From Acidobacteriota bacterium (lineage in GTDB: Bacteria > Acidobacteriota > Thermoanaerobaculia > Thermoanaerobaculales > Thermoanaerobaculaceae): a stretch of DNA of 64,000 nt. The translations under genes were made by a program, and so were the position numbers. The stretch spans positions 1-64,000 of the forward strand of contig JACQZW010000024.1 of assembly GCA_016213675.1 (NCBI GenBank). The letters run 5' to 3'. This document shows, piece after piece, positions 22,335 through 55,314 of this stretch; positions within the stretch are counted from its first letter, which is position 1; each line of letters begins with the position of its first letter. Below the pieces are notes generated by a model that saw nothing but the letters and a program-made list of their open reading frames with translations, was not told where the DNA came from and did not search any database.

Positions 22335-22827
22335 GGACCGCTGCTCCCGGATCGCGGCGTCAACTCCCATCGCAGTCCCGAGGGAGTTGCGCCCCGGTCC
22401 TCGTCGGTGCCGGCACGCTGCGCAGGCGAAGGCGGTGCGCGCCGAGGACACGGCCCTGAGGCGGATCGGTTTCCTGCCGCCTCGGGAATTCTCTTGACGT
22501 CCACGCTCTCATCAACTGGGGATGCTCGCAGGATCATGACTTCGTGGTCTGGAGGCACCGGAGTGTGTGACGGTCGATCCCTCACCCCGTCCCTCTCCCG
22601 GCGGGAGAGGGAGCCGAGCGTGACCGCGCCGGAGGTGCGTGGTGTCCCGTTCTTCTTCCTGACGGGGGCAGTCGTCACGGTTCGGCAGATCGCTCAGTAT
22701 CGGTTCCCTCTCCCGCCGGGAGAGGGTCAGGGTGAGGGACGGAGCCACCGACCCCTGATTCCCTCGAAGGTCCGAGCCTTCATCCGACGGGAGTGCTCGC
22801 GGGATCTCGAACCGCCTCGAGAAACGC
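22335..22827. other. Non-coding stretch with facing palindromic repeats
   Basis: No gene is seen. It holds a 32-bp repeat unit at 22580-22611 and its near-perfect inverted partner at 22706-22737. Confidence 0.6.
22580..22737. repeat. Inverted pair of REP-like units
   Basis: Two 32-bp units (each with a CTCTCCC/GGGAGAG hairpin) face each other across 94 bp. They are nearly identical to the direct pair at 431-462 and 605-636. The pair could form a long cruciform or mRNA hairpin between the P1 gene and the convergent cupin gene. Confidence 0.65.
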
Positions 22828-37412: not shown

Positions 37413-37964
37413 TCATGCAGTGTGTTGCGGCTCGCTGACCAGCTCCTCGAAGAGCGTCCTGTAGTGAATCATCGCGTGGCGCAGGTCTTCGGTGTTGGCC
37501 TGTCCCTTGGCCTGGCGGACCGCGATCTCGTGGGCGGACCGGTAGTTCGCCAGGACCAGCGGGTGGTCAACGGAGATGTCGGCCGCACGCTGCTCGAAGG
37601 CGGTCACCGGATAGCCGCGCGTGGACATCACATCCCCGAGCAGTTGGTCGGCTTCCGCGACCGCCCCGGCGGGGCCGTCCACGAACCGCGTCTGGATCTT
37701 GCGCCAGGAGTCCTCGAAGCGCATGCGATCGGCGGGCGCGAGCGGTTGGACGTGGAAACCCTCCACCCGGGCGGTGCGCTTGTCGAGCCCGGCTTCCGCC
37801 AGCCGCCGGCTGCCGCCTTCCTCCACGGCGCGCGCATACTCGGCGCCGCCGAACTTGCCGCGCAGTCCTGCGGTCCGGCGGTTCCGGAGAACGACCAGCG
37901 TGCCGATGGCCGCCGCCGCGATCAGGACGAACGCGATGATTGCAGCAAGTGTTGTCATGCTCAT
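37413..37964 (-). CDS. Membrane-anchored protein of unknown function
   Basis: A 183-residue protein with one N-terminal TM helix (residues 5-27, TLAAIIAFVLIAAAAIGTLVVLR) and a basic stop-transfer RNRR. The helical soluble domain includes FGGAEYARAVEEGGSRRLAEAGL, RFEDSWRKIQTRFVDGPAGAVAEADQLL and YRSAHEIAVR. I recognise the architecture from conserved hypothetical proteins but know no function. GGAGGCAGGTC precedes the start. Promoter P7 places it in the same regulon as the stress genes around it. Confidence 0.82.
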   Translation of the reverse strand: MSMTTLAAIIAFVLIAAAAIGTLVVLRNRRTAGLRGKFGGAEYARAVEEGGSRRLAEAGLDKRTARVEGFHVQPLAPADRMRFEDSWRKIQTRFVDGPAGAVAEADQLLGDVMSTRGYPVTAFEQRAADISVDHPLVLANYRSAHEIAVRQAKGQANTEDLRHAMIHYRTLFEELVSEPQHTA

Positions 37965-38630: not shown

Positions 38631-41600
38631 TCAATCCTCGTCGGCGCCGAGCACGACACGTACGCGGTGGCGGCGCCCGTCGTCGACGAGCGGAATCGCG
38701 GCCCCGTCGACGGGCGCTCCGTCGAGCTCGACGCTCGCCACGCCCCGGCAGCGCCGCTCCGGGTTGTCCACGACGATCGTGTAGTGCGTCGCTCCGACGC
38801 GCCACTCGATCGAGTAGGTCGGCCACGACGACGGGATGCAGGGGTCCACCGTGAAGGAGGTGCCGAGGCGCTTGAGCCCGAGGATCCCCTCCAGGCCGAC
38901 CCGGTACATCCAACCCGCCGACCCGGTGTACCAGGTCCAGCCGCCGCGTCCCCGGTGCGCGGGGTGGTCGTAGACGTCCCCCGCGACCGCGTAGGGCTCG
39001 GTCATGTACTTCGCGACCTGGCCCGCCGTCCGCGCGTGGTTGATGGGGTTGAGCATGTGGAAGAGCTCCACCGCCTCGTCGCCGCTCCCGAGCCGCGTCA
39101 GCGCGAGGACGACCCAAGCCGCCGCGTGCGTGTACTGCCCGCCGTTCTCGCGGATCCCCGGGATGTACCCCTTGATGTACCCCGGGTCGAGCGCCGTGCG
39201 ATCGAAGGGTGGCGAAAGGAGCAGGATGACGCCCGAGCCGCGCCGGACCAGGTGGGCACGGACGGCGCCCATGGCGCGCTCGGCGCGCGGTCCCGGCGCC
39301 GCGCCCGACAGCACGGCCCAGGTCTGGGACACCGAGTCGATCTTCCCCTCGTCGTTCTGGGACGAGCCCAGCGGGGTGCCGTCGTCGAAGTATGCACGGC
39401 GGTACCACTCGCCGTCCCAGCTCTGCTCCAGCATGGTTCCCAGCCGCTCGCGCTCGGCACGGTAGCGGGCCGCGCGAGGCGCCTCGCCCCGCTCGTCGCA
39501 CAGGGGTGCGAACGCGCCGAGGACGGCGTGCAGGAACCAGCCGACGAAGATGCTCTCTCCGCGTCCCTCGGGGCCGACGTTGTTGAAGCCGTCGTTCCAG
39601 TCGCAACTCCCGATGAGCGGCAGGCCGTGCGCGCCGGCGGTGAGCGCGCGATCGATGGCCCGCAACCCGTGCTCGAACAGCGTGCCCGTCTCGCCGGAGA
39701 CGGCCGGGATGCCGTACGCCTCGGGCTCTCCGTCCGGGACGGCCGGCGATTCCAGGAACGGCACCTGCACGTCGAGGACGGTGAGGTCCCCGGTGGCCCC
39801 GACGTACTCGGCGACCGCGTAGGGGAGCCAGAGAAGGTCGTCCGAGCAGCGGGTCCGGATGCCCTGGCCGCCCGGGGCGTTCCACCAGTGCTGCACGTCC
39901 CCCTCCACGAACTGGCGCGCGGCGGCCCGGAGGAGGTGCTCGCGGGTGAGGTCCGGCCGCGTGAACATGAGCGCCAGGACGTCCTGGAGCTGGTCGCGGA
40001 AGCCGTACGCGCCGCTCGCCTGGGAGTAGCCGGAGCGCGCCCACAGGCGGCACGCGAGGTCCTGGTAGAGGAGCCACCGGTTGACGAGGAGGTCGAAGGA
40101 GTCGTCGGGGGTGGTGACCCGCACGGCGTCCAGGGTGTCGTCCCACGAGGCCTCGACCGCGAGGAGCTCGGCCTCGGCAGCCGCGGCGCCGCCAGCGCCT
40201 GCGAACCGCCGCAGGAGCGCGCGGGCCTCCGCGGCGTCACGCCCCTCCCCGAGGAGGAACACGACGCGCCGCGTCGCGCCGGGCTCGAGCTCCACGACCG
40301 TCTGCAGCGCCGCGCACGGGTCGAGGCCGGCGCCGAAGCGGTCGAGCAGCCGCGGCCGGCCGAGCGCGGCCGCCCGCGCCAGCGAGCCGTTGCGGCCGAG
40401 GAACTCCAGGCGGTCCCCGGTGGCGGAGGCGATGGGCTCGCTGGCGGCGGCGAACGCCACGCGCTCGCGGTCCTGGCCGTACAAGTTGCGCGCCAGGACC
40501 GCGCCGGTCCCGGCGTCGCGCTCCGTCGCGACGAACCTCGGGCCGCTCGCGCTGGGCGGGCCGAGCAGCCACTCGTTGTACGAGAACAGGGCGAGGCGCC
40601 GCGGCCGGTCGGAGCGGTTCGTCAACGTCAGGACCGACAGCTTCACCGGCTCGTCCCGGGCCACGAACACCGCGAGCTCCTGCGCGATGCCATGCGCGGC
40701 GTGGGAGAACCGCGTCACGCCCGCCGCGTGGCGCACCACCCAGCGCGGCGAGCGGGAGGTCCGCCGGAGGGGCGTTGGCGTGGCACCCCACAGGGCCCCG
40801 CTCTCCTCGTCGCGGACGAAGATCGCCTCGGCGGTCGGGTCGGTGACCGCGTCGTTGGCGAACGGCGTGAGCCGGTTCTCGCGGCTGTTCTCGGCCCAGG
40901 TGTGGGCCGCCCCGGAGGTGGTGACGATGGCCCCGAAGCGCGGGTTGGCGAGGACGTTGATCCAGGGAAGCGGGGTCTCGCGGTCGCCCTCGAGGACGAC
41001 GACGTACTCGCGGCCGTCGTGCGTGAAGCCGCCGAGGCCGTTCTCCAGGAGGAGCGGCGGCGGCTGCGGGTCGGCGTCCGTCCGGCCCTCTTGGTCCGCA
41101 GCGGCCGGATCGTCGGCCTCGCCGACCGGCACGCCGGTCGACGGGAGCGGGAGGTCGACCTCCGTGAGGTCGAGCTGCTGCTCCAGGGTGCCGCGACCAC
41201 CGGACAGCACCGCCCGGGCGACGACGCTCAGGAGGACCGCCTCGGTCTCCGTGACCGTATCGCCCTGGAGGAGGAACACCCCGCCCGGCTGCCCCTTCCA
41301 AGCGCTCCACGGCCCGCCGTCAACGAGCTGGGTGAGCTGGCGGGCCATCTCGTCGCGGTAGCTCTCCGAGCGCTCGTTCAGGATCACGACGTCCGCCTTC
41401 AGCCCCTTGAGGCGCCAGAGCTCGTGTGCGGTCAGGACCTGCCGGACGAGCTGGATGTCGTCCGGCTCCTTGACGCGGACGAGGACGATCGGGAGGTCGC
41501 CCGAGATGCCGAACCGCCAGAGGCCGTCCTGCCCGAGGGTGTTCCGCGCCAGGGTCTCCCCGTCCGCCCGCAGGGATGCGTCGGAGAAGAACACCCGAGA

Positions 41601-44600
41601 GGCGAGCTCCTCGAAGGGTTGGGCCTGCCCGACGGAGATGCCGAGATGCCGCAGCGAGATCTGCGCCTGCGTGTAGGCCAGGGCGAAGGCGCGGGCGGCG
41701 ACGCCGTGGTCGTGGTACTTCTGGGCGCACGCGCGGGCGGCCGACTCGTCGGCGGCGACACCGGTCGTGAACGAGACGCGGGCGAACCCCCCCGGGGCCA
41801 GCCGCAGCCGGGTCCGGAGGGAGAGGATCGGGTCGAGCACCGCGCCGGTCGTCCCGGAGAGCGCGCGCCCGTCCATCGCCCGCGGGTCGCCGGGGCCACG
41901 CCCGCGCCCGAGGAAGCGCATCCGGTCGGTCTCCCACTCGACCTGCGCCTGGGTCGGCCCGTGGACGGAGAGCACGTGGAACCCGACGAGCCCCGGGTCG
42001 TGCCGGGCGCGCGGCCGGCGCCGCGCCAGGAGCGCCGTGTTCTCGGCGATCCACTCCGTCTCGACGAAGAGCTTGCCGAACGCGGGGCTGGCGGCGTCCT
42101 CGGCGACGGAGCCCAGGCCCACCTCGACGTAGCTCGTCAGCTCGATCTCGCGGGGACGGTCGCTCCGGTTCGTCAGCGAGACGCGCCACACCTCGGCGTC
42201 GTCCCCCGGCGAGACGGTGACCTCGAGACGCGTCGCGATGTCGTGGTCGAGCCGCTCGAACGACGCCTTCTCGGCGAGGAACTCCACGAGGTAGCTGTCG
42301 GGTTCCTTGGCGGTGGGCTGGTAGGCGGCGGACCAGACGGCGCCGGTGTGGACGTCGCGCAGGTAGACGAACCGGCTGCCGGGATCGCCGGTGCGGTCCT
42401 CCCGCCAGCGCGTGACCGCGCGGTCGCGGCAGAAGCTCGCCCCGCCACCGCCGTTCGTGACGATCGCGACGTAGCTGCCGTTCGACAGGATCTGCGACCG
42501 CGGGAACGGGGTGTGGGGAGAGCGGAGGCGGCGTGGAGCGCGCGCCAGCACGGGCGGTTCGGCCCGGGTCTCCTCGGCCGGCCGCGGCTCGATGATCGGC
42601 GCCTCGCGCGGGATCCGCTCCTGGAGGAGGAGCTCGGTCGCCTGGATCCTCGGGTCGGCGTGGAAGCGGTCGACCATGACGTCGTCAAGGAGGAGGTTGG
42701 CGATGGCGACGAGCGTCATCCCCTGGTGATGCGCCATGTGGGTCTTCACGACCACGCCGCGGGCGGGCCGGACGGCGGCCCCGTCGCCGTCCTCGGACGG
42801 CTTGCGCGCCGTGTAGTCCACGGCGTCGTAGTAGCCGAACGGCCCCGCGGCGCCTTCGCTCGCCAGGCGACGCAGGTTCCGAGCCGCTTCGGCCGGCTCC
42901 AGGAGGGCGGCCAGCGCGGTCGCGTAGGGGGCCACGACGAGCTCGTCGGCCAGCCCCCGTTTCAACCCGAGGCCCGGGACGCCGAACTCCTTGTACTGGT
43001 AGTTGCCGAGCCGGTCGGTGAGGTCGTAGGCGGACTCGGAGATCCCCCATGGGACGCGGCGCTCGTGGCCGTAGCGGATCTGCCTCCTGACGACCATCCG
43101 GCAGCTCTGGTCCAGGAGCGTCCCCGGGTAGGTCCGCATCAGGAGGAGCGGCATCAGGTACTCGAACATCGTCGCGCTCCACGAGACCAGCGTCGGGACG
43201 CCGTCCACGCTGACGACGAGCCGCCCGAGGTGGAACCAGTGGCTCTGCGGGACGTCGCCCTTGGCGATGGCGAAGAAGCTCGCCAGGCGCGACTCCGAGG
43301 CCAGGAGGTCGTAGAAGGAGCCGTCCGCTCGCCCCGGCCCGCCGGCGTCGGCCAGCCGATAGCCGATCGAGAAGAGCTGGCGCTGGCGATCGTAGAGGAA
43401 CGCGAAGTTCATCCCGTCGGCCAGGGCCGCGGCGCGACGAGCGAGGTCTTGGAGGCGTGACGACAGGTCTGCTCCGAAGCCGCGGGGGGCCGGCGGCCCC
43501 CACCCAACCTCCTCCGCCTTTGCCCCCCGGGCCCCCACGCGAGCGCCGGCAAGGCCGGACGCTCGCTCATCTCGCCCCCACCCCCCCGGCGTGTCTTCAT
43601 CCTCAGTGGTGCCGGGGACCGGCATGGCGACTCCCGGCGGCGCGCCGAGCCGCCGGCACCCCTCCGCCAGGGCGAGGAGCGCCCCCGCGAGGTTGCCGCT
43701 GTCCACCGTGGACACGTAGCGGGGGTAGAGCGGCGCGAGGCTCTGGGTGTCGTACCAGTTCAGGAGGTGGCCCTCGTGGTGCTCGAGACCCTCGATCGTG
43801 GTCAGGGTCTCCTCGAGCCTCTCGACCAACGCGTCCGCCGACAGCAGGCCGAGGTCGTGCGCCGCGAGCGTGGAGAGCAGGCCCATGCCGATGTTGGTCG
43901 GCGAGGTCCGGTGGGCCACCGCCGGCGCCCGCTCCTCCTGGACGTTGTCGGGTGGGAGCCAATGGTCGTCCGGGCCGGCCAGGGTGTCGAAGAAGGCCCA
44001 GGTCTTCCGCGCCACCTCGAGCAGGAGATCGCGGTCCTCGGGCGAGATCTCCCGCCGGCCCGGCGCCGTCGACTGGCTGAGCCAGTACGCGCAGGCGGGC
44101 GCCGCCGCCCACAGGACGAGGAAGGGCAGCGCCAGCGGGAGTGCGCCGGGACGTGCAGCGATGACGAGGGCGAGAAGCCCCAGGGCCGCGATCGGGCTCG
44201 CGGCCATCTCGACGAAGAAGGAGCGGATCCCCGCCCGCATCAGGCCGGCGGCCCGTGACGCCTGCGCGGCCGCGGTCTCCCAGTCGAGGAGGCGCCGTTG
44301 GGTGATGACGAGCCGAACGAGCGTCAGGGCGATGGCGTGCACCATCTCCCAGGCGTGGAACGGGAGGAAGACCAGCGACAGGAGCGCCTGCCCGAAACCG
44401 GTGCTGAGGTCCTCCACGAAGCCCCGGAGGTGGACGCGGGCCGGCTCGTGCGCCGGGCGCCGCTTGAGCAGCAGGAGGAGGGAGGCGACGAACGGGAACG
44501 CGACGACCGCGAGACCACCGATCGTCCAGGCGAGGGGGCTTCCCGGCAGGACAGTCCAGGCGGCGCCGAAGTAGGCGAGCAGCGCGGGAGGCAGGAGGCT

Positions 44601-46994
44601 GCGCCGGAGGTTGTCGAGGATCTTCCACTGGCTGATCTGCGGGAGGCGGTTCTTCGCCCAGCCCTGGGGCGTGGGGACGAGCGGGAAGAGCCAGGCGAGG
44701 ATCTGCCAGTCGCCGCGCACCCAGCGGTGCTGCCGCCGCGCGTGGGCGAGGACGTTGGCCGGGTAGTCGTCCACCACCTCGACGTCGGAGACGAGCCCGG
44801 TGCGGGCGTACAGCCCCTCGAAGAGGTCGTGCGAGAGCAGCGTGTTCTCGGGGACGCGCCAGCCGACCGTCGCCTGGAAGGCATCGACGTCGTACAGCCC
44901 CTTGCCCGTGAAGATCCCCTCGCCGAACAGGTCCTGGTAGGTGTCCGAGACCGCCGTCGTGTAGGGATCGACGCCGGTGTGCCCGGCGTACAGCCGTGCG
45001 AAGAGCGACCCGGCAGCGCTCGCGAGGTTGACGCTCACGCGCGGCTGGAGGATGCCGTAGCCCTCGGTGACCCTGCGGAGGGCGGCGTCGACCACGGGCC
45101 GGTTGATCGGGTGCGCGATGATCCCGATCAGGGTCCTGGCGGCGCCCCGCGGCAACCGCGTGTCGGCGTCCAGGGTGAGGACGTAACGCACCTCCGGGAG
45201 GATCGAGAGGTCCCCGACCTTGACGGAGAAGCCGGTGTCGGTCGCGGAACGCAGCAGGCGGTTGAGCTCCTCGATCTTTCCCCGCTTGCGCTCCCAGCCC
45301 ATGAAGACGCCCTCGTTCGGGTTCCACTGCCGGTCGCGGTGGAACAGGTAGAAGCGGTCGTTCCCGTCGGGTGCGTGCCGGTGGTTGAGGGCCTCGATGC
45401 CGGTCACCGCGGCCGCGAGGATCTCGGTGTCACCGGCGACCGGGAGCGTCCGAGCGTCCCTGTAATCGCTGAGGAGCGCGAAGTGGATCCGGGGATCGAG
45501 GTTCCCGAGCGCCTGCACCTCGAGATGGGCCAGGAGCCGCCCGACCTCCTCCACGCTGCCGAGGAGCACGGGCACGACCACCAGCGTGCGGGCGCTCGCG
45601 GGGATCCCGTCGTCGAACTCGATGCGGGGAAGCCGGCGGGGCGGGACGAGCGCGGCCACCATGCGCTGCACGAGGAGCACCGCGAGCTCGCTCGCCGGGA
45701 GCAGCGCGAGCAGGGCCGCGACGGTCGCCAGCCCGGCGGCGCCCGCGGCGCCCGCGTAGGCGTACGCACCGAGGACGCCGGCGCCGGTCAGGAGGGCGAT
45801 GCCGCCGAGGTACGCCGCGGTCGCATGGGCGAACGCAAAGCGGCGCAGCCGCCCGGCGAGGCGCGGGCGGTACGCCACGTCGATCTCGAGGCCGCGCCGG
45901 CCCGGACCGATCAGGTGATGGCCGACATGCGCGGCCTTCTCGCCGATCCCGTCCCGCTCCGCGGCCCGGCGGGCGCTCTCGACCGTCCGCAGGGCCACGC
46001 GCACCTGCGCCTCGCCGGTCGGCTCGGCGAGCTCCTCGACGGCGTGCCGGTAGCGGTCGCGACTCGCGAAGTCCATCCGCGGATAGACCCCGGCCGGGTC
46101 CCGCCGCAGGATCTCCTCGACCGGGCTGACCTGCTCGACGAAGCGGCTCCAGTCGAGCGTCGCGCAGAGCCGCAGGCTCGTCACCGTGTTGCCGGTGGAG
46201 ACCTGGTCGGTGGCCTGGCGCTGGCTCTCGGAGCGAACGGCATCCTCGGGCGTCGTCCCTCGCGCGGCGAGTGCCTGCGCCACCGCGGCCGCGAGCGGGG
46301 AGACGAGGGGGTCGTGCTCGTGCATCCGCTGACGGAGCTGCGCCACGAAGGCGCTCGGGAGCGGGTCGGGCAGCGGGCCGGGGGCATCGCCGCGCTCGAG
46401 CCGGGCGAACGCGACGTCGGCCTCGAGGCGTGCCGCTCGCCCTTCGAGGATCCCGTCGGTCAGGAGCCTGAGGTTCTCAAGGAGGGCGAGCTTGAGCATG
46501 CTGGGCCACGCCCACAGCTCGCCGATCGTCAGCGGCGCCACCGTCTGGAAAGCGAGGACGAACCGGGTGAGCCGCTCCGCGTCGACCCGCCCGTCGCCGT
46601 GCCGGATCAGCTCGAGCGCCATCGCGTGGATGCGCGCCTTGCCAGAGAACTCGCGGGCCGCGAGCTTCGGCAGCTTCCGGTAGTACCCGGTGGGGAGGTC
46701 GTGCCGGACGGCGCGCGCCTCCGACTCGACGAGGTGGAAGTTGTCGAGCAGCCACTCGGCGGCCGGCGGAACGGCGACGCCCCGGTGGACGTCGTCAGCG
46801 AGCGAGCGGTACGCCGCGTTCAGGGCGCGGATGTTCGCTTCGAGTCGTGGCGAGACGTCGTGCCCGCCCGCGCGTGAGGCAGGCAGGAGGGTGAAGACGG
46901 CGGCGAGCGTCCTCGCGCGTTCCTCGAGGCCCTCGGGGCTCAGGAGCTCGCCCCTGAGAGGCTCGGCTCCCTCGGCGCGACGGCGTCCGAACAG
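38631..46994 (-). CDS. Cyclic beta-1,2-glucan synthase-like protein (NdvB/Cgs type) with GH94 domain
   Basis: A 2787-residue membrane protein. It begins with an [20 protein letters not shown] region; TM helices (about 390-450) precede a GT84 glycosyltransferase domain (VVVPVLLGS, then [12 protein letters not shown]), followed by more TM helices. A glycoamylase-like domain ([24 protein letters not shown]), two GT36-type beta domains ([38 protein letters not shown]) and a C-terminal GH94 phosphorylase-like domain ([22 protein letters not shown]) follow. This is the known layout for periplasmic cyclic glucan synthesis, an osmoprotective polymer. The start is CTG 46994 behind AGGAGG: the frame upstream hits TGA at 47000, and residues before the first ATG (46622) are clearly conserved sequence. 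It lies 22 nt after the P8 gene. Confidence 0.9.
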
Positions 46995-47734: not shown

Positions 47735-47809
47735 TGCACCGCCGTCGCCCCATCCGTGAAGCGCACTTTCTACCCGAAAGAGAGGTCGTGGACTAGGTAC
47801 AAATTACCC
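47735..47809 (-). promoter_or_regulatory. Box A/B promoter P8
   Basis: On the minus strand: box A GGGTAATTTGTACCT (47809-47795) and box B GGGTAGAAAGTGCGCTTCAC (47775-47756). The CTAG position holds TGCA (47738-47735). Spacing of 19 and 17 bp and the 38-nt distance to the ATG are conserved. Confidence 0.83.
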
Positions 47810-48461
47810 GGCCGGGGCCCGACCCGGCGCCGCCGGGTTCGGCGCCGCCGCCGAAGAAGCTCTCGAGGTCGAGATCCCCCGAGCGCAGCCGGCGCGGCCG
47901 CCGGGTGAGGTAGTTGTAGCGCACACCGAAGGAGAGCAGCGCCCGCTCGAGGAGCCGGCGGCCGCGGTAGAGGCGCGACATCACGGTACCGAGCGGGATC
48001 GACAGGATCGCGGCGACCTCCTTGTAGGTGTGATCCTCGAGGTCGGCGAGGAGAATCACGAGACGATAGGCGCGGGGAAGCGCCGCCAGCGCCCGCTGCA
48101 CCTCGCTGTCGAGGGAGGCCTCGACGGCCTCGTCCTCCGGGGTGCGGGCCACCGAGCCGTGCACCGGCGCGAGCGCCGACTCCAGGGTCTCCTCGACCTG
48201 CCCGAAGGTCACCAGGGCCGGCGTCGTCTGGCGGCGTCGATAGTCGTTGATGAAGGTGTTCTTGAGGATCCTGAACAGCCACGCCCTGAGGTTGGTGCCG
48301 GGGCGGAACGTCCCGTAGTGGCGGTAGGCCCTGAGGTAGGTCTCCTGGAGCAGGTCCTCCGCGCCGTCCGCGTTGCGGGTGAGGCGAAGCGCCGTCCTGC
48401 GCAGTTGCGCCTGGTAGGGCAGCTCGCCGAGGTCGAAGTCCCAGGATCCTGGCTCGCTCAC
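47793..48461 (-). CDS. ECF RNA polymerase sigma factor with its own box A/B promoter
   Basis: A 222-residue ECF sigma factor. Region 2 (YQAQLRRTALRLTRNADGAEDLLQETYLRAYRHYGTFRPGTNLRAWLFRILKNTFINDYR) and region 4 (ALAALPRAYRLVILLADLEDHTYKEVAAILSIPLGTVMSRLYRGRRLL) are intact. A ~40-residue C-terminal tail rich in Gly/Arg follows. GTG 48461 is preferred over ATG 48491 because CAGGAGGACGAC precedes it and the ATG would lie almost at the expected transcript start. No anti-sigma gene adjoins it. Its gene carries promoter P9, so it either reads or is controlled by the regulon signal. It is divergent from the histidine kinase. Confidence 0.92.
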   Translation of the reverse strand: MSEPGSWDFDLGELPYQAQLRRTALRLTRNADGAEDLLQETYLRAYRHYGTFRPGTNLRAWLFRILKNTFINDYRRRQTTPALVTFGQVEETLESALAPVHGSVARTPEDEAVEASLDSEVQRALAALPRAYRLVILLADLEDHTYKEVAAILSIPLGTVMSRLYRGRRLLERALLSFGVRYNYLTRRPRRLRSGDLDLESFFGGGAEPGGAGSGPGRVICT

Positions 48462-48492
48462 GTCGTCCTCCTGACGGCCAAGCGAATCCACC

Positions 48493-48567
48493 GTAGGGGG
48501 CTCAAACTACGTCGGCAAGCGCACTTACTACACAGGTACGGGTCGGTTCTCTCAGTAGAAACTACGG
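48493..48567 (-). promoter_or_regulatory. Box A/B promoter P9 (sigma factor gene)
   Basis: On the minus strand: box A CCGTAGTTTCTACTG (48567-48553), box B GTGTAGTAAGTGCGCTTGCC (48533-48514) and CTAC (48496-48493). Spacing of 19 and 17 bp; start codon 35 nt beyond. It implies autoregulation or co-regulation of the sigma factor. Confidence 0.87.
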
Positions 48568-48736
48568 AGCCGACTCGGCGTCGCCCGGCGGTCCCCGCGG
48601 CGGACGGCCTCACGGCGTTCGGTGGTATGTTTGCCAAAAGCCCCCGCCCCCGGGCCGCCTTCTTCAGGCGTACAGAGCGATCGTCGGATGGTCCGGGAGC
48701 GACAACGCGTCCCGTTGCAGCGTGAGGAGAGGCCCG

Positions 48737-50896
48737 ATGAGGAAGGCGCTGAAGCCGCATGGGAAGGCGGACGACCGGAGCCGCACGGTCGCCGCGCTGT
48801 TGGTGGCGGCGAGCGCGGTGGCGGAGAACCGGGCGTTCGCCGACGCGACGCGGGCGATCCTGGCGGCATGCAAGAGGATGCTCGGCGCCGGCGCCGGCCT
48901 CGTCGGCGTACGCGTGCCGGGCGGCAAGGAGCTCGAGGTCGCCCTCGTCGATCCCGGCGGCCTTGCGCTCGACCCTGCTGCCGGGTTTCCTGCGGTGCTG
49001 CGCCGTCTGAGCGCTCGTGCCTCCAAGCTCGGCCGGCCCGTCTTCACCAACGACCTGTCGAAGTCCGCGGCGAACGTGTCCCCCGCGACCCGCGGTCGCC
49101 GAGTGCTCCCGCAGAACGCGCTCCTCGCACCGGTCGTCATCGCCGGCGAGGTCGCCGGGCTCGTCGGCCTGCTCGACAAGCCGGGGGGCTTCTCGGCGGC
49201 CGACTGTCGGCTCGCCGCGGTGTTCGCCGAGATGACGGCCGTGGCGATGCTCAACAGCCGCAAGGTCGGCCGCCTCCAGGAGGACCGGAACGGCCTCGCC
49301 AGGGAGGTGCGCGAGGGCGCCACGCACCTGCGCCGGGCCGAGGCGCAGTTCAGGACGCTGGTCGAGAACCTGCCCGACATCATCGCCCGCTTCGACGCGG
49401 ACCTGCGCCACCTCTACGTCAGCCCCTCGGTCCAGCGCGTCACCGGACGCCACCCGCGGGACTTCGTGGGCAGGACGAACCGCGAACTGGGGATGTCGCC
49501 CGAGCTCGTCGAGGTGTGGGACACCGCCCTGAAGAGGGTCTTCGCGACCGGACAGCCCGGGAGGATCGAGTTCGCCTTCCCGGCCCAGGACGGGACGAGG
49601 TACTTCGACTGCCGGCTGGTCCCGGAGCTCGGGCCGCGGGGCGCGATCCCGTCCGTGCTCAGCGTCGCCCGCGACGTGACCGACAGGTGGCTCGCGTTCG
49701 AGGCCGAGCGGCACGCCCGCTTTGTCGCCGACGCCCTCCGCGAGGCGACCGTGGTGCTCACCCGCAGCCTCGACCGCGGAACGGTGCTGGTGACCCTGCT
49801 CGACCGCCTGCGCCGGATGGTCCCCTTCGACCGCGCCCGCGTCATGCTCCTCGAGGCGGAGTCGCGGCTCTCGGTCCGGGCCATCTTCGACGGCGACCAC
49901 GTCGTTCCGATGACCCCCGAGGTGCGATCGGAGTTCGATCCGACCGATCATCCGATCGTCCACGGCATCCTGAAGACCGGTACGGCCGTGCTGATCTCCG
50001 ACGTCCGCGCGCACCCCGACTGGAGCCTCCCGATGGACCGCACGTCCGAGGCGAGCTGGATGGGGGTCCCGCTGTTCGCCCGTGGCGACGTGGCCGGGCT
50101 GTTCTCGCTCTCCAAGCGGCAGCCCGGCTACTTCAAGGAGGAGCACGTCAAGCTGGCCGAGGCGATGTCGTCCCAGGCCTCGGTCGCCGTCGAGAACGCG
50201 ATCCTCTTCGAGCAGATGCAGGCCTCCACGGTGCGGATGAAGGCGCTCTCTCGCCGTCTCGTGGAGGTTCAGGAGAGCGAGCGGCGCAGCATCGCCCGCG
50301 AGCTTCACGACGAGGCGGGTCAGGCGCTGGTGTCGCTGCGAATCGGGCTCCGGCTGCTCGAGCGGGAGATCGGCGAGGGCGGCAGTGTCACCGGGCTGGT
50401 GGCGGACCTCATGCAGAGGACCGATGCCGTCATCGACGGCCTGCACCGTCTGGCCGCGGACCTGCGGCCGGCGAGCCTCGACTACCTGGGGCTCGAGGCG
50501 GCGCTCCGCCAGTACTCGCGCTCGGTCGGGTCCAAGTTCGGGCTGGTGGTCCGCTTCAAGGCGCGCGGGTTCACCAGCGAGCGGCTCCCGGCGACGGTGG
50601 AGACCGCGCTGTACCGGGTGGTCCAGGAGGCGATCACCAACGTCGTGCGCCACGCCCGCGCGACCCAGGTCGACGTGCTGGCGGAACGTCGCGGCGACCG
50701 CGTGCACGTGATGGTCGAGGACGACGGCGTCGGCTTCGAGCCGGAGCTGGTCCAGCGCGGTGATCACTTCGGCCTGCTGGGCCTGAGGGAGCGAGCCGAG
50801 TCCCTGGGCGGGGTCCTGACCGTGGAGAGCGCGCCGGGGGCGGGCACGACCGTGGTGGTGGAGGTGCCGAGTGCCGATCCGCATTCTGATCGCTGA
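48737..50896 (+). CDS. GAF-PAS-GAF sensor histidine kinase (NarX/DevS-like)
   Basis: A 719-residue kinase without TM segments. It has GAF 1 (about 20-170), PAS (about 205-320; FRTLVENLPDIIARFDADLRHLYVS), GAF 2 (about 345-495), a HisKA_3 dimerisation domain with phospho-acceptor His524 (RRSIARELHDEAGQAL), and an HATPase domain (about 610-715; EAITNVVRHARA, VEDDGVGF, GLLGLRERAESLGG). This is the NarX/DevS class that pairs with NarL/LuxR regulators. The response regulator start lies 26 nt inside this gene. GAGGAGAGGCCC supports ATG 48737 over 48722. A soluble GAF sensor suggests a cytoplasmic or diffusible signal. Confidence 0.93.
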   Translation: MRKALKPHGKADDRSRTVAALLVAASAVAENRAFADATRAILAACKRMLGAGAGLVGVRVPGGKELEVALVDPGGLALDPAAGFPAVLRRLSARASKLGRPVFTNDLSKSAANVSPATRGRRVLPQNALLAPVVIAGEVAGLVGLLDKPGGFSAADCRLAAVFAEMTAVAMLNSRKVGRLQEDRNGLAREVREGATHLRRAEAQFRTLVENLPDIIARFDADLRHLYVSPSVQRVTGRHPRDFVGRTNRELGMSPELVEVWDTALKRVFATGQPGRIEFAFPAQDGTRYFDCRLVPELGPRGAIPSVLSVARDVTDRWLAFEAERHARFVADALREATVVLTRSLDRGTVLVTLLDRLRRMVPFDRARVMLLEAESRLSVRAIFDGDHVVPMTPEVRSEFDPTDHPIVHGILKTGTAVLISDVRAHPDWSLPMDRTSEASWMGVPLFARGDVAGLFSLSKRQPGYFKEEHVKLAEAMSSQASVAVENAILFEQMQASTVRMKALSRRLVEVQESERRSIARELHDEAGQALVSLRIGLRLLEREIGEGGSVTGLVADLMQRTDAVIDGLHRLAADLRPASLDYLGLEAALRQYSRSVGSKFGLVVRFKARGFTSERLPATVETALYRVVQEAITNVVRHARATQVDVLAERRGDRVHVMVEDDGVGFEPELVQRGDHFGLLGLRERAESLGGVLTVESAPGAGTTVVVEVPSADPHSDR

Positions 50897-51509
50897 CGAC
50901 CACGCGGTGGTCCGTTCCGGCCTCAAGGCGTTGCTCCGCGCCGACCCCGATCTCGAGGTCGTCGGCGAGGCGGGAGATGGGGTGGAGGTGGTGCGCCTGG
51001 TCGAGGAGTTGCACCCCGACGTGGTCCTGCTCGACATCACCATGCCCCCCGACAACGGCATCGAGACCGCCAAGCGACTGAAAGCGCAGCACCCGGAGCT
51101 GATCGTGCTGTTCCTCACCATGCACGAGGACGAGACCCTGCTGCACGAGGCGTTGCGCGCGGGCGCCGCGGGCTACGTGATCAAGCGGGCCGAGGAGTCC
51201 GAGATCATCGAGGCGATCCGGGCGGCGAACCGGGGCGACATCTACGTGCACCCCGCGATGACCCGCGCGCTCCTCCACCAGCCCGTCACGACAGAGCACC
51301 GGCGCGGCGTCCAGGCCATCGCGCTCACCCGTCGCGAGCTCGACGTCCTGCGCCTCCTCGCCAAGGGGAACACCAACCGGCAGATCGCTGCCCTGCTCAG
51401 CCTGTCGATGCGCACCGTCGAGAACCACCGTGCCAACCTGATGGGCAAGCTCGGGCTGGTCAGCCGCGTCGAGCTGGTGAACTACGCCGAGGAGCACAAG
51501 CTCCTCTAG
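50871..51509 (+). CDS. NarL/LuxR-family response regulator
   Basis: A 212-residue regulator starting at GTG 50871 and overlapping the kinase gene by 26 nt. The receiver domain has the acidic pair Asp9/Asp10, phospho-acceptor Asp55 (VVLLDITMP) and conserved LTMHED and GYVIKRA segments. The C-terminal LuxR helix-turn-helix (about 148-210; LTRRELDVLRLLAKGNTNRQIAALLSLSMRTVENHRANLMGKL) is intact. Regulators of this class bind short inverted repeats, and box A (GGGTAG-N3-CTACCC) has that form, so it is the leading candidate for the regulator of the eleven promoters. One of them (P10) lies just downstream. Confidence 0.94.
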   Translation: MPIRILIADDHAVVRSGLKALLRADPDLEVVGEAGDGVEVVRLVEELHPDVVLLDITMPPDNGIETAKRLKAQHPELIVLFLTMHEDETLLHEALRAGAAGYVIKRAEESEIIEAIRAANRGDIYVHPAMTRALLHQPVTTEHRRGVQAIALTRRELDVLRLLAKGNTNRQIAALLSLSMRTVENHRANLMGKLGLVSRVELVNYAEEHKLL

Positions 51510-51553
51510 CCCGCACTGCTGCGCAAGATCTCGAGGGGTCCCGAGCTCCGGCC

Positions 51554-51628
51554 GCGTACTTTCTACCTGAGTCGCGGCGTCGCTCCCGGGTAGAAAGTGC
51601 GCTTCACGGGGGTGCGCCGCGGGGCTAG
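51554..51628 (+). promoter_or_regulatory. Box A/B/CTAG promoter P10
   Basis: Box A GCGTACTTTCTACCT (51554-51568), box B GGGTAGAAAGTGCGCTTCAC (51588-51607) and CTAG (51625-51628); gaps of 19 and 17 bp. The ATG at 51664 is 39 nt from the CTAG start. Confidence 0.9.
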
Positions 51629-54672: not shown

Positions 54673-55314
54673 ATGAGACGCACGGGTGAGGGATCGACGG
54701 TGACCGAGGGACGTGTCTTCGGTCACGACGGAGCCGGAGTCGTCGCCCTGACCACGCCGCAACACGCGCTCGCAGGACTGTTCCTCGGTGGCTCGCCGGC
54801 CAGGTTGGTCGTCCACGCGCGGACGGCAATGCAGCACGTGATCCCCTGGCCAGGGACGTCGTCGTGGCAGTGGCGGCAGCCGGCCACGCCCCGGGTCCCT
54901 CTTCCGGAACGTCTTGCTCCTGGTTCGCCGCAGCCGATACCCGAAGAGAGCACGCCTCAGGCCAGGCGCGACAGACTCCACGCGAACGGGACGTGGGCCT
55001 CGTCGATGCCGGGCCCGACGACGAGAAGCCGCACGGGCGAGTGGGAATGGCTCCGTCGGCTCGTCGGCCTGTCCGGCTTGGGCTGGGCGTTCGTTCTCAC
55101 GGCGGTCTGTTGGGAGCTCTTCGCCGTCGCGTTGTCCCTGTGTGCCGGCTGGGGATGGGACAAGGGAGCGGGCTTCTTCGCGTGGGGACTCGGGATCCTC
55201 GCGTTGGGTTTCTATCTGAGGACGAGCAGGCAAAGCCCTGCAGTCTCCCGTCTCTTCCTCGGCGTCAACATCCTCGTCGTCGGTGTGCTCTCCCTGGTGG
55301 TCGCCACCAGGTAG
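54673..55314 (+). CDS. Membrane protein of unknown function, odd N-terminus
   Basis: A 213-residue frame under promoter P11 with the conserved leader CCAGGAAGGACGGCCTGCC. The last ~90 residues are a convincing membrane domain with three helices (WAFVLTAVCWELFAVALSL, GAGFFAWGLGILALGFYL, LFLGVNILVVGVLSLVV). The first ~115 residues are rich in Arg, Pro, Thr and Ser, with no recognisable domain. Either the gene carries a disordered cytoplasmic head, or the true protein starts later and the 5' part is decayed or frameshifted. The family is unknown. Confidence 0.62.
   Translation: MRRTGEGSTVTEGRVFGHDGAGVVALTTPQHALAGLFLGGSPARLVVHARTAMQHVIPWPGTSSWQWRQPATPRVPLPERLAPGSPQPIPEESTPQARRDRLHANGTWASSMPGPTTRSRTGEWEWLRRLVGLSGLGWAFVLTAVCWELFAVALSLCAGWGWDKGAGFFAWGLGILALGFYLRTSRQSPAVSRLFLGVNILVVGVLSLVVATR

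Follow-up and report, generated by a model that had tools for sequence, protein, structure and literature searches.

The eleven promoters that form a set at 22–55 kb of the window (the whole analysed stretch, 64,000 nucleotides of an Acidobacteriota contig) most probably constitute a single two-component regulon, to which a probability of about 0.8 is assigned: dimers of a NarL/LuxR-family response regulator (RR) would bind two boxes, A and B, and activate the housekeeping RNA polymerase. On sequence grounds, the ECF sigma factor gene lying within the set (the island ECF) is proposed to be a target of the box A/B promoters and not their regulator (Table 1).

Table 1. Regulatory genes and promoters of the set (positions in the window)
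Feature	Position	Strand	Remarks
ECF sigma factor gene, 222 aa	47793..48461	−	Pfam Sigma70_r2 and Sigma70_r4_2
Histidine kinase gene (GAF, PAS_4, GAF, HisKA_3, HATPase_c)	48737..50896	+	Pfam; ATG at 48737 is the likely start
NarL/LuxR-family RR gene	50871..51509	+	Pfam Response_reg and GerE; proposed activator of the whole set
Extended −10 TGGTATGTT, proposed promoter of the kinase–RR pair	48623..48631	+	Conserved in relatives
P1	22143..22220	+	Boxes A and B, then TTCCCG-N17-TAGCGT; identified by reading the sequence and by pattern search
P2	25748..25825	−	Upstream of BON-domain protein gene
P3	26788..26865	−	Upstream of PEMT-family methyltransferase gene
P4	29811..29888	−	Upstream of gene without Pfam match, then sortase gene
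P5	32100..32177	−	Upstream of DUF6600 gene and BON gene
P6	35192..35269	−	Upstream of PAS-GGDEF-EAL gene
P7	38012..38089	−	Upstream of gene 37413–37964 and ABC transporter gene
P8	47732..47809	−	Box A with 2 mismatches, overlapping the 3′ end of the ECF gene; box B exact
P9	48490..48567	−	Boxes A and B, then TTGCCG-N17-TACGGT; precedes the ECF gene
P10	51554..51631	+	Boxes A and B, then TTCACG-N17-TAGGTT; 45 bp past the RR stop codon
P11	54565..54642	+	Upstream of gene 54673–55314

The arrangement at the centre of the set given in the earlier note, with the ECF gene divergent from genes for a GAF-PAS-GAF histidine kinase and a NarL/LuxR RR, was confirmed by the Pfam domains; the promoter copy P9 reported for the ECF gene was located ahead of it, and P10 does follow the RR gene at once. 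In the RR, a receiver (Response_reg, 2.4e-29) is fused to a GerE HTH (1.6e-20), and the phospho-acceptor Asp in LLDITMP was invariant across 18 aligned RRs, while the kinase contains HisKA_3 (2e-9) and HATPase_c (1.2e-17) domains. The reading frames of kinase and RR share 26 bp, the pair is adjacent in relatives too, and kinase orthologues with 74–76% identity were found beside the RR gene in genomes G026–G029. Since the pair has a conserved extended −10 of its own (TGGTATATT or TGGTATGTT in 5/5 aligned relatives, kept even in G028, where the kinase gene is relocated, and in G029, where P9 is lost), and a search of its promoter for box A/B in its own direction found none, it was placed above the boxes in the hierarchy. 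Judging by the proposed targets (BON-domain, sortase, DUF6600, PAS-GGDEF-EAL, and PEMT genes), the response would be one to cell-envelope or general stress. Rfam and tRNA searches across the window found nothing; a 37-bp inverted-repeat element, CCCTCACCCCGACCCTCTCCCGCCGGGAGAGGGCGCC, is present in three copies (430–466, 604–640, and 22579–22615).

In the common layout, box A (GGGTAG-N3-CTACCC) is followed about 34 bp on by box B (GGGTAG-WAA-GTGCKC) and then by TTNNNN-N17-TANNNT. Box A, whose left arm recurs in box B, is a palindrome of the GGG-N9-CCC inverted-repeat form described for it previously. When box B was located first and box A was sought 16–79 bp upstream, the A–B spacing was 34 bp in 65/72 pairs and 32–35 bp in 72/72, and the control search for box A on the downstream side of box B gave 0 pairs; thus, the spacing was recovered without being imposed and does not stem from the search pattern. 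Alignment of 53 sites with up to two mismatches, chosen by boxes A and B alone with the −35 and −10 ignored, gave the consensus GGGTAGTTYCTACCY for box A, GGGTAGWAAGTGCKC for box B, and TT at the start of the −35 hexamer, which is TTCCSG-like and poor. TANNNT was found at a spacer of 17 bp in 41/53 sites and at 16–18 bp in 47/53, with A-11 in 44/53 and T-7 in 47/53, against DNA of about 70% GC. Both are bases flipped out by primary sigma-70 (PMC8103513), and the principal-sigma promoters of GC-rich Streptomyces likewise combine a −10 whose positions −7 and −11 are conserved with a weak or missing −35 (PMC6344877). The −10 element of the set carries the housekeeping-sigma signature (A-11, T-7; TANNNT).

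With T-7 set at the final T of the −10, which places the start by prediction, the centres of boxes B and A fall near −43 and −77, respectively. A box centred there beside a poor −35, together with a −10 of the A-11/T-7 type, are predicted class II features; class II activator sites usually have centres in the region of −41.5 to −43. Box B lies directly against the −35 hexamer, where repressors can sit as well, so the RR might bind both boxes and repress, or act as a switch; this is improbable, however, as the poor −35 fits activator dependence, the centre of box B has the usual class II position, and repressor sites more often overlie the −10 or the start.

Across the genome of 4.97 Mb, box B was found in eight exact copies and one with a single mismatch, all at 22–55 kb of the same contig, and none with 0–1 mismatch was found elsewhere in the genome. 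The reversed control pattern of the A + B composite gave 0 matches in any motif-bearing genome of the order. A scan of 84,980 species (257 Gb) with the exact pattern returned 27 stretches, all of them in Acidobacteriota MAGs. No paper on the motif or the regulon was found in the open-access literature by titles and abstract openings, which is weak evidence of novelty.

The element CTTCCC-N17-CTAG, which had been taken for the sequence recognised by the sigma factor, proved to be TTNNNN-N17-TANNNT read one base shifted; CTAG was found in 29/53 sites at spacers of 17–18 bp, and this reading of the −10 was dropped after the 53 sites had been aligned. It is at odds with the promoter of the ECF gene itself: the −10 of P9 is TACGGT and that of P8 is weak (GCACCA, or CACCAT at a spacer of 18 bp; the same weak −10 is present in G026, G027, and G029), neither being CTAG, so that no ECF-type −35/−10 is shared between the set and the promoter of the sigma gene. 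The island ECF could nevertheless be the sigma factor for all of the promoters, reading CTTCCC-N17-CTAG alone or with the RR, in keeping with its position in the middle of the set and with its own promoter copy, as is often seen in autoregulated sigma genes. The gene losses in related genomes, like the TACGGT of P9 and the TANNNT of the set, make this very improbable. Close orthologues of the island ECF (77%) were found only in G026 and G028, and the copy survives in just three genomes. In G027, an in-frame deletion leaves aa 1–29 and 185–222, with both DNA-binding domains gone, and in G029, P9 and nearly all of the ECF gene are gone except for an apparent short 3′ remnant; the RR and many other promoters are kept in both. 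G026 and G028 have a counterpart of P9 ahead of the ECF gene, and in G027 one precedes the remnant of the gene. Canonical promoters without the island ECF were also found in G046, which has only a 48% core-type ECF, and in G038 (taken from the species scan, completeness not stated), which has two canonical sites and a 56% RR and in which a search for an ECF match at 1e-40 found none. The promoters outlive the proposed sigma factor, and the losses in G027 and G029, of a gene linked to those very sites, are a cleaner test than co-occurrence because linkage alone would have preserved the ECF gene too.

Most genomes of the family have a core (parent) ECF paralogue with 61–66% identity to the island ECF; in the class, it was found in 133/149 genomes (E-value 1e-55), nearly all of them motif-less, and most of the 135 genomes that lack the promoters carry it. 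Across the segments expected to make promoter contact (GTNLxAWLFxILKNTFIN and GTVMSRLYRGRR), the island and core copies are almost identical, so the island ECF probably shares the specificity of the core copy, which is probably not for the box A/B promoter. On the same near-identity, the core ECF could replace the island ECF and read the promoters, with the RR giving specificity, as in PorX–SigP of Porphyromonas; RR–ECF cooperation is known (PMC4800418), and the core ECF is retained in all motif genomes considered except G038. Such a role is unlikely, given the canonical sites of G038 and the conservation of A-11 and T-7, which speaks for primary sigma and not for the core ECF, and the core ECF was rejected as the promoter sigma on account of its near-universal distribution. 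This distribution and the housekeeping-type −10 tell against the earlier suggestion that the sigma factor reads the promoters. In loci L093, L094, and L097–L099, which belong to several relatives, the core ECF genes share an upstream primary-sigma-like promoter, TTGACATT...GACTCAATTA; the stretch AACTCNGACTCA, conserved upstream of core ECF genes, could be an operator.

Regulation by the RR is supported by its distribution, and the RR half of the check proposed in the earlier note, co-occurrence of regulator and motif, was strongly borne out. Among 149 genomes of the class (up to two mismatches allowed in the pattern; at least 65% identity for an RR orthologue), the promoter pattern was found in 14, the RR in 13, and both in 12 (Fisher p = 7e-15 by genome, 4e-8 by genus, and 0.002 by family). 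The 65% cut-off was set after the values had been seen, the counted RRs having 65–86% identity and the paralogues no more than 60%; if G025 and G032, which have only a 60% RR paralogue and no motif, are counted as RR carriers, the overlap is 12/15, still far from chance. G073 and G099, fragmented MAGs of 320 and 610 contigs, have one site each and no RR orthologue (best 38%), and G140 has an RR with 66% identity and no site within two mismatches. RR–motif pairs were found in six families (f1, f3, f6, f7, f8, and f14), with sites often within 10 kb of the RR, and in the other families the −35/−10 layout is the same at most sites, many of them near the RR. Helix RTVENHRANLMGKL is common to the RRs of the genomes richest in canonical sites, the others having RTVE(S/G)H or a further variant. 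It should be noted that the RR and ECF alignments were built from tblastn-extracted proteins, that the genomes are MAGs in which gaps may pass for absences (both ECF losses lie inside contigs), that sites from related genomes are not independent, and that shared transfer also yields RR–motif co-occurrence, since the RR and the sites are physically linked. Of the two models put forward earlier, the one needing a single regulator stands with the RR, by co-occurrence and with its binding predicted, while the sigma half of the model needing both does not.

At a different genomic location, a 60% RR paralogue with a related kinase (G000, contig C28, 122331–122966, locus L124) was considered as the regulator and ruled out, as G025 and G032 have the paralogue and no motif. 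No box A/B site with up to four mismatches was found in the stretch around it, so it probably reads a different site. In locus L147 (G030, contig C86), tandem RRs (65% and 59%) lie by one kinase, and the promoters of that genome are slightly degenerate.

In the mechanism proposed, the GAF-PAS-GAF kinase would phosphorylate the NarL/LuxR-type RR, both being transcribed from their own putative extended −10 promoter. RR dimers would occupy box A, near −77, as well as box B, a degenerate copy of it that lies near −43 against the poor −35 (TTNNNN), and the RR would act as a class II activator of housekeeping-sigma RNA polymerase at TANNNT. The island ECF gene would be switched via P9 as one target among about eleven, and its product probably relays the signal into the regulon of the core ECF as a second tier, a role suggested by the match of its promoter-contacting regions to those of the core paralogue.

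The RR falls within the NarL/FixJ two-component systems, with a receiver Asp and a GerE HTH and with a HisKA_3/HATPase_c kinase gene overlapping its own. Among solved relatives, the closest by sequence are VraR (3e-36), NarL (2e-34), and DevR (2e-34), and it reached none of the NCBIfam equivalog cut-offs, so that by score it is no orthologue of the three. The system resembles those of VraR, NarL, and DevR/DosR in its receiver with a GerE/LuxR-type HTH, in its HisKA_3 kinase partner, and in palindromic sites upstream of and beside the −35, to which RR binding is here predicted; it differs in a strict two-box platform with a spacing of about 34 bp and a degenerate proximal box. The DevR box is GGG-N8-CCC with GGGAC arms, whereas box A is GGG-N9-CCC with GGGTAG/CTACCC arms; by score, DevR is not a nearer relative of the RR than VraR or NarL are, and the system is not assigned to the DevR/DosR regulons. 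In E. coli, the NarL-class RR RcsB drives the ECF sigma gene rpoE from P3 (PMC8103513), and P9 is proposed to make the island ECF gene a downstream RR target likewise; unlike rpoE, it is one of about eleven local targets, is dispensable in relatives, and has no recognisable anti-sigma neighbour. In Porphyromonas gingivalis, the two-component system PorXY is also linked to an ECF sigma factor, SigP, which binds the target promoters (PMC4800418), whereas in the present set the targets persist after loss of the ECF and retain −10 elements of the primary-sigma type.

The window also encodes, at 38631–46622, a 2663-aa cyclic glucan synthase-like protein with GH94 and glycosyltransferase domains. 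It is 74–85% identical in relatives, even in those of other families, which suggests that the island has been transferred between genomes. It is conceivable, though doubtful, that the regulator, the kinase, and the target genes under two-box promoters travel from one Acidobacteriota family to another as a self-contained, probably envelope-stress regulon, in which an ECF taken up from the core genome to provide a second-tier connection with the core ECF regulon of the host was then repeatedly lost. The analysis assigns a putative regulator to a large promoter family of uncultured soil Acidobacteriota, with natural gene losses serving as the experiment against the more eye-catching sigma-factor reading, and it offers a compact testable system in which one RR protein and one promoter fragment suffice.
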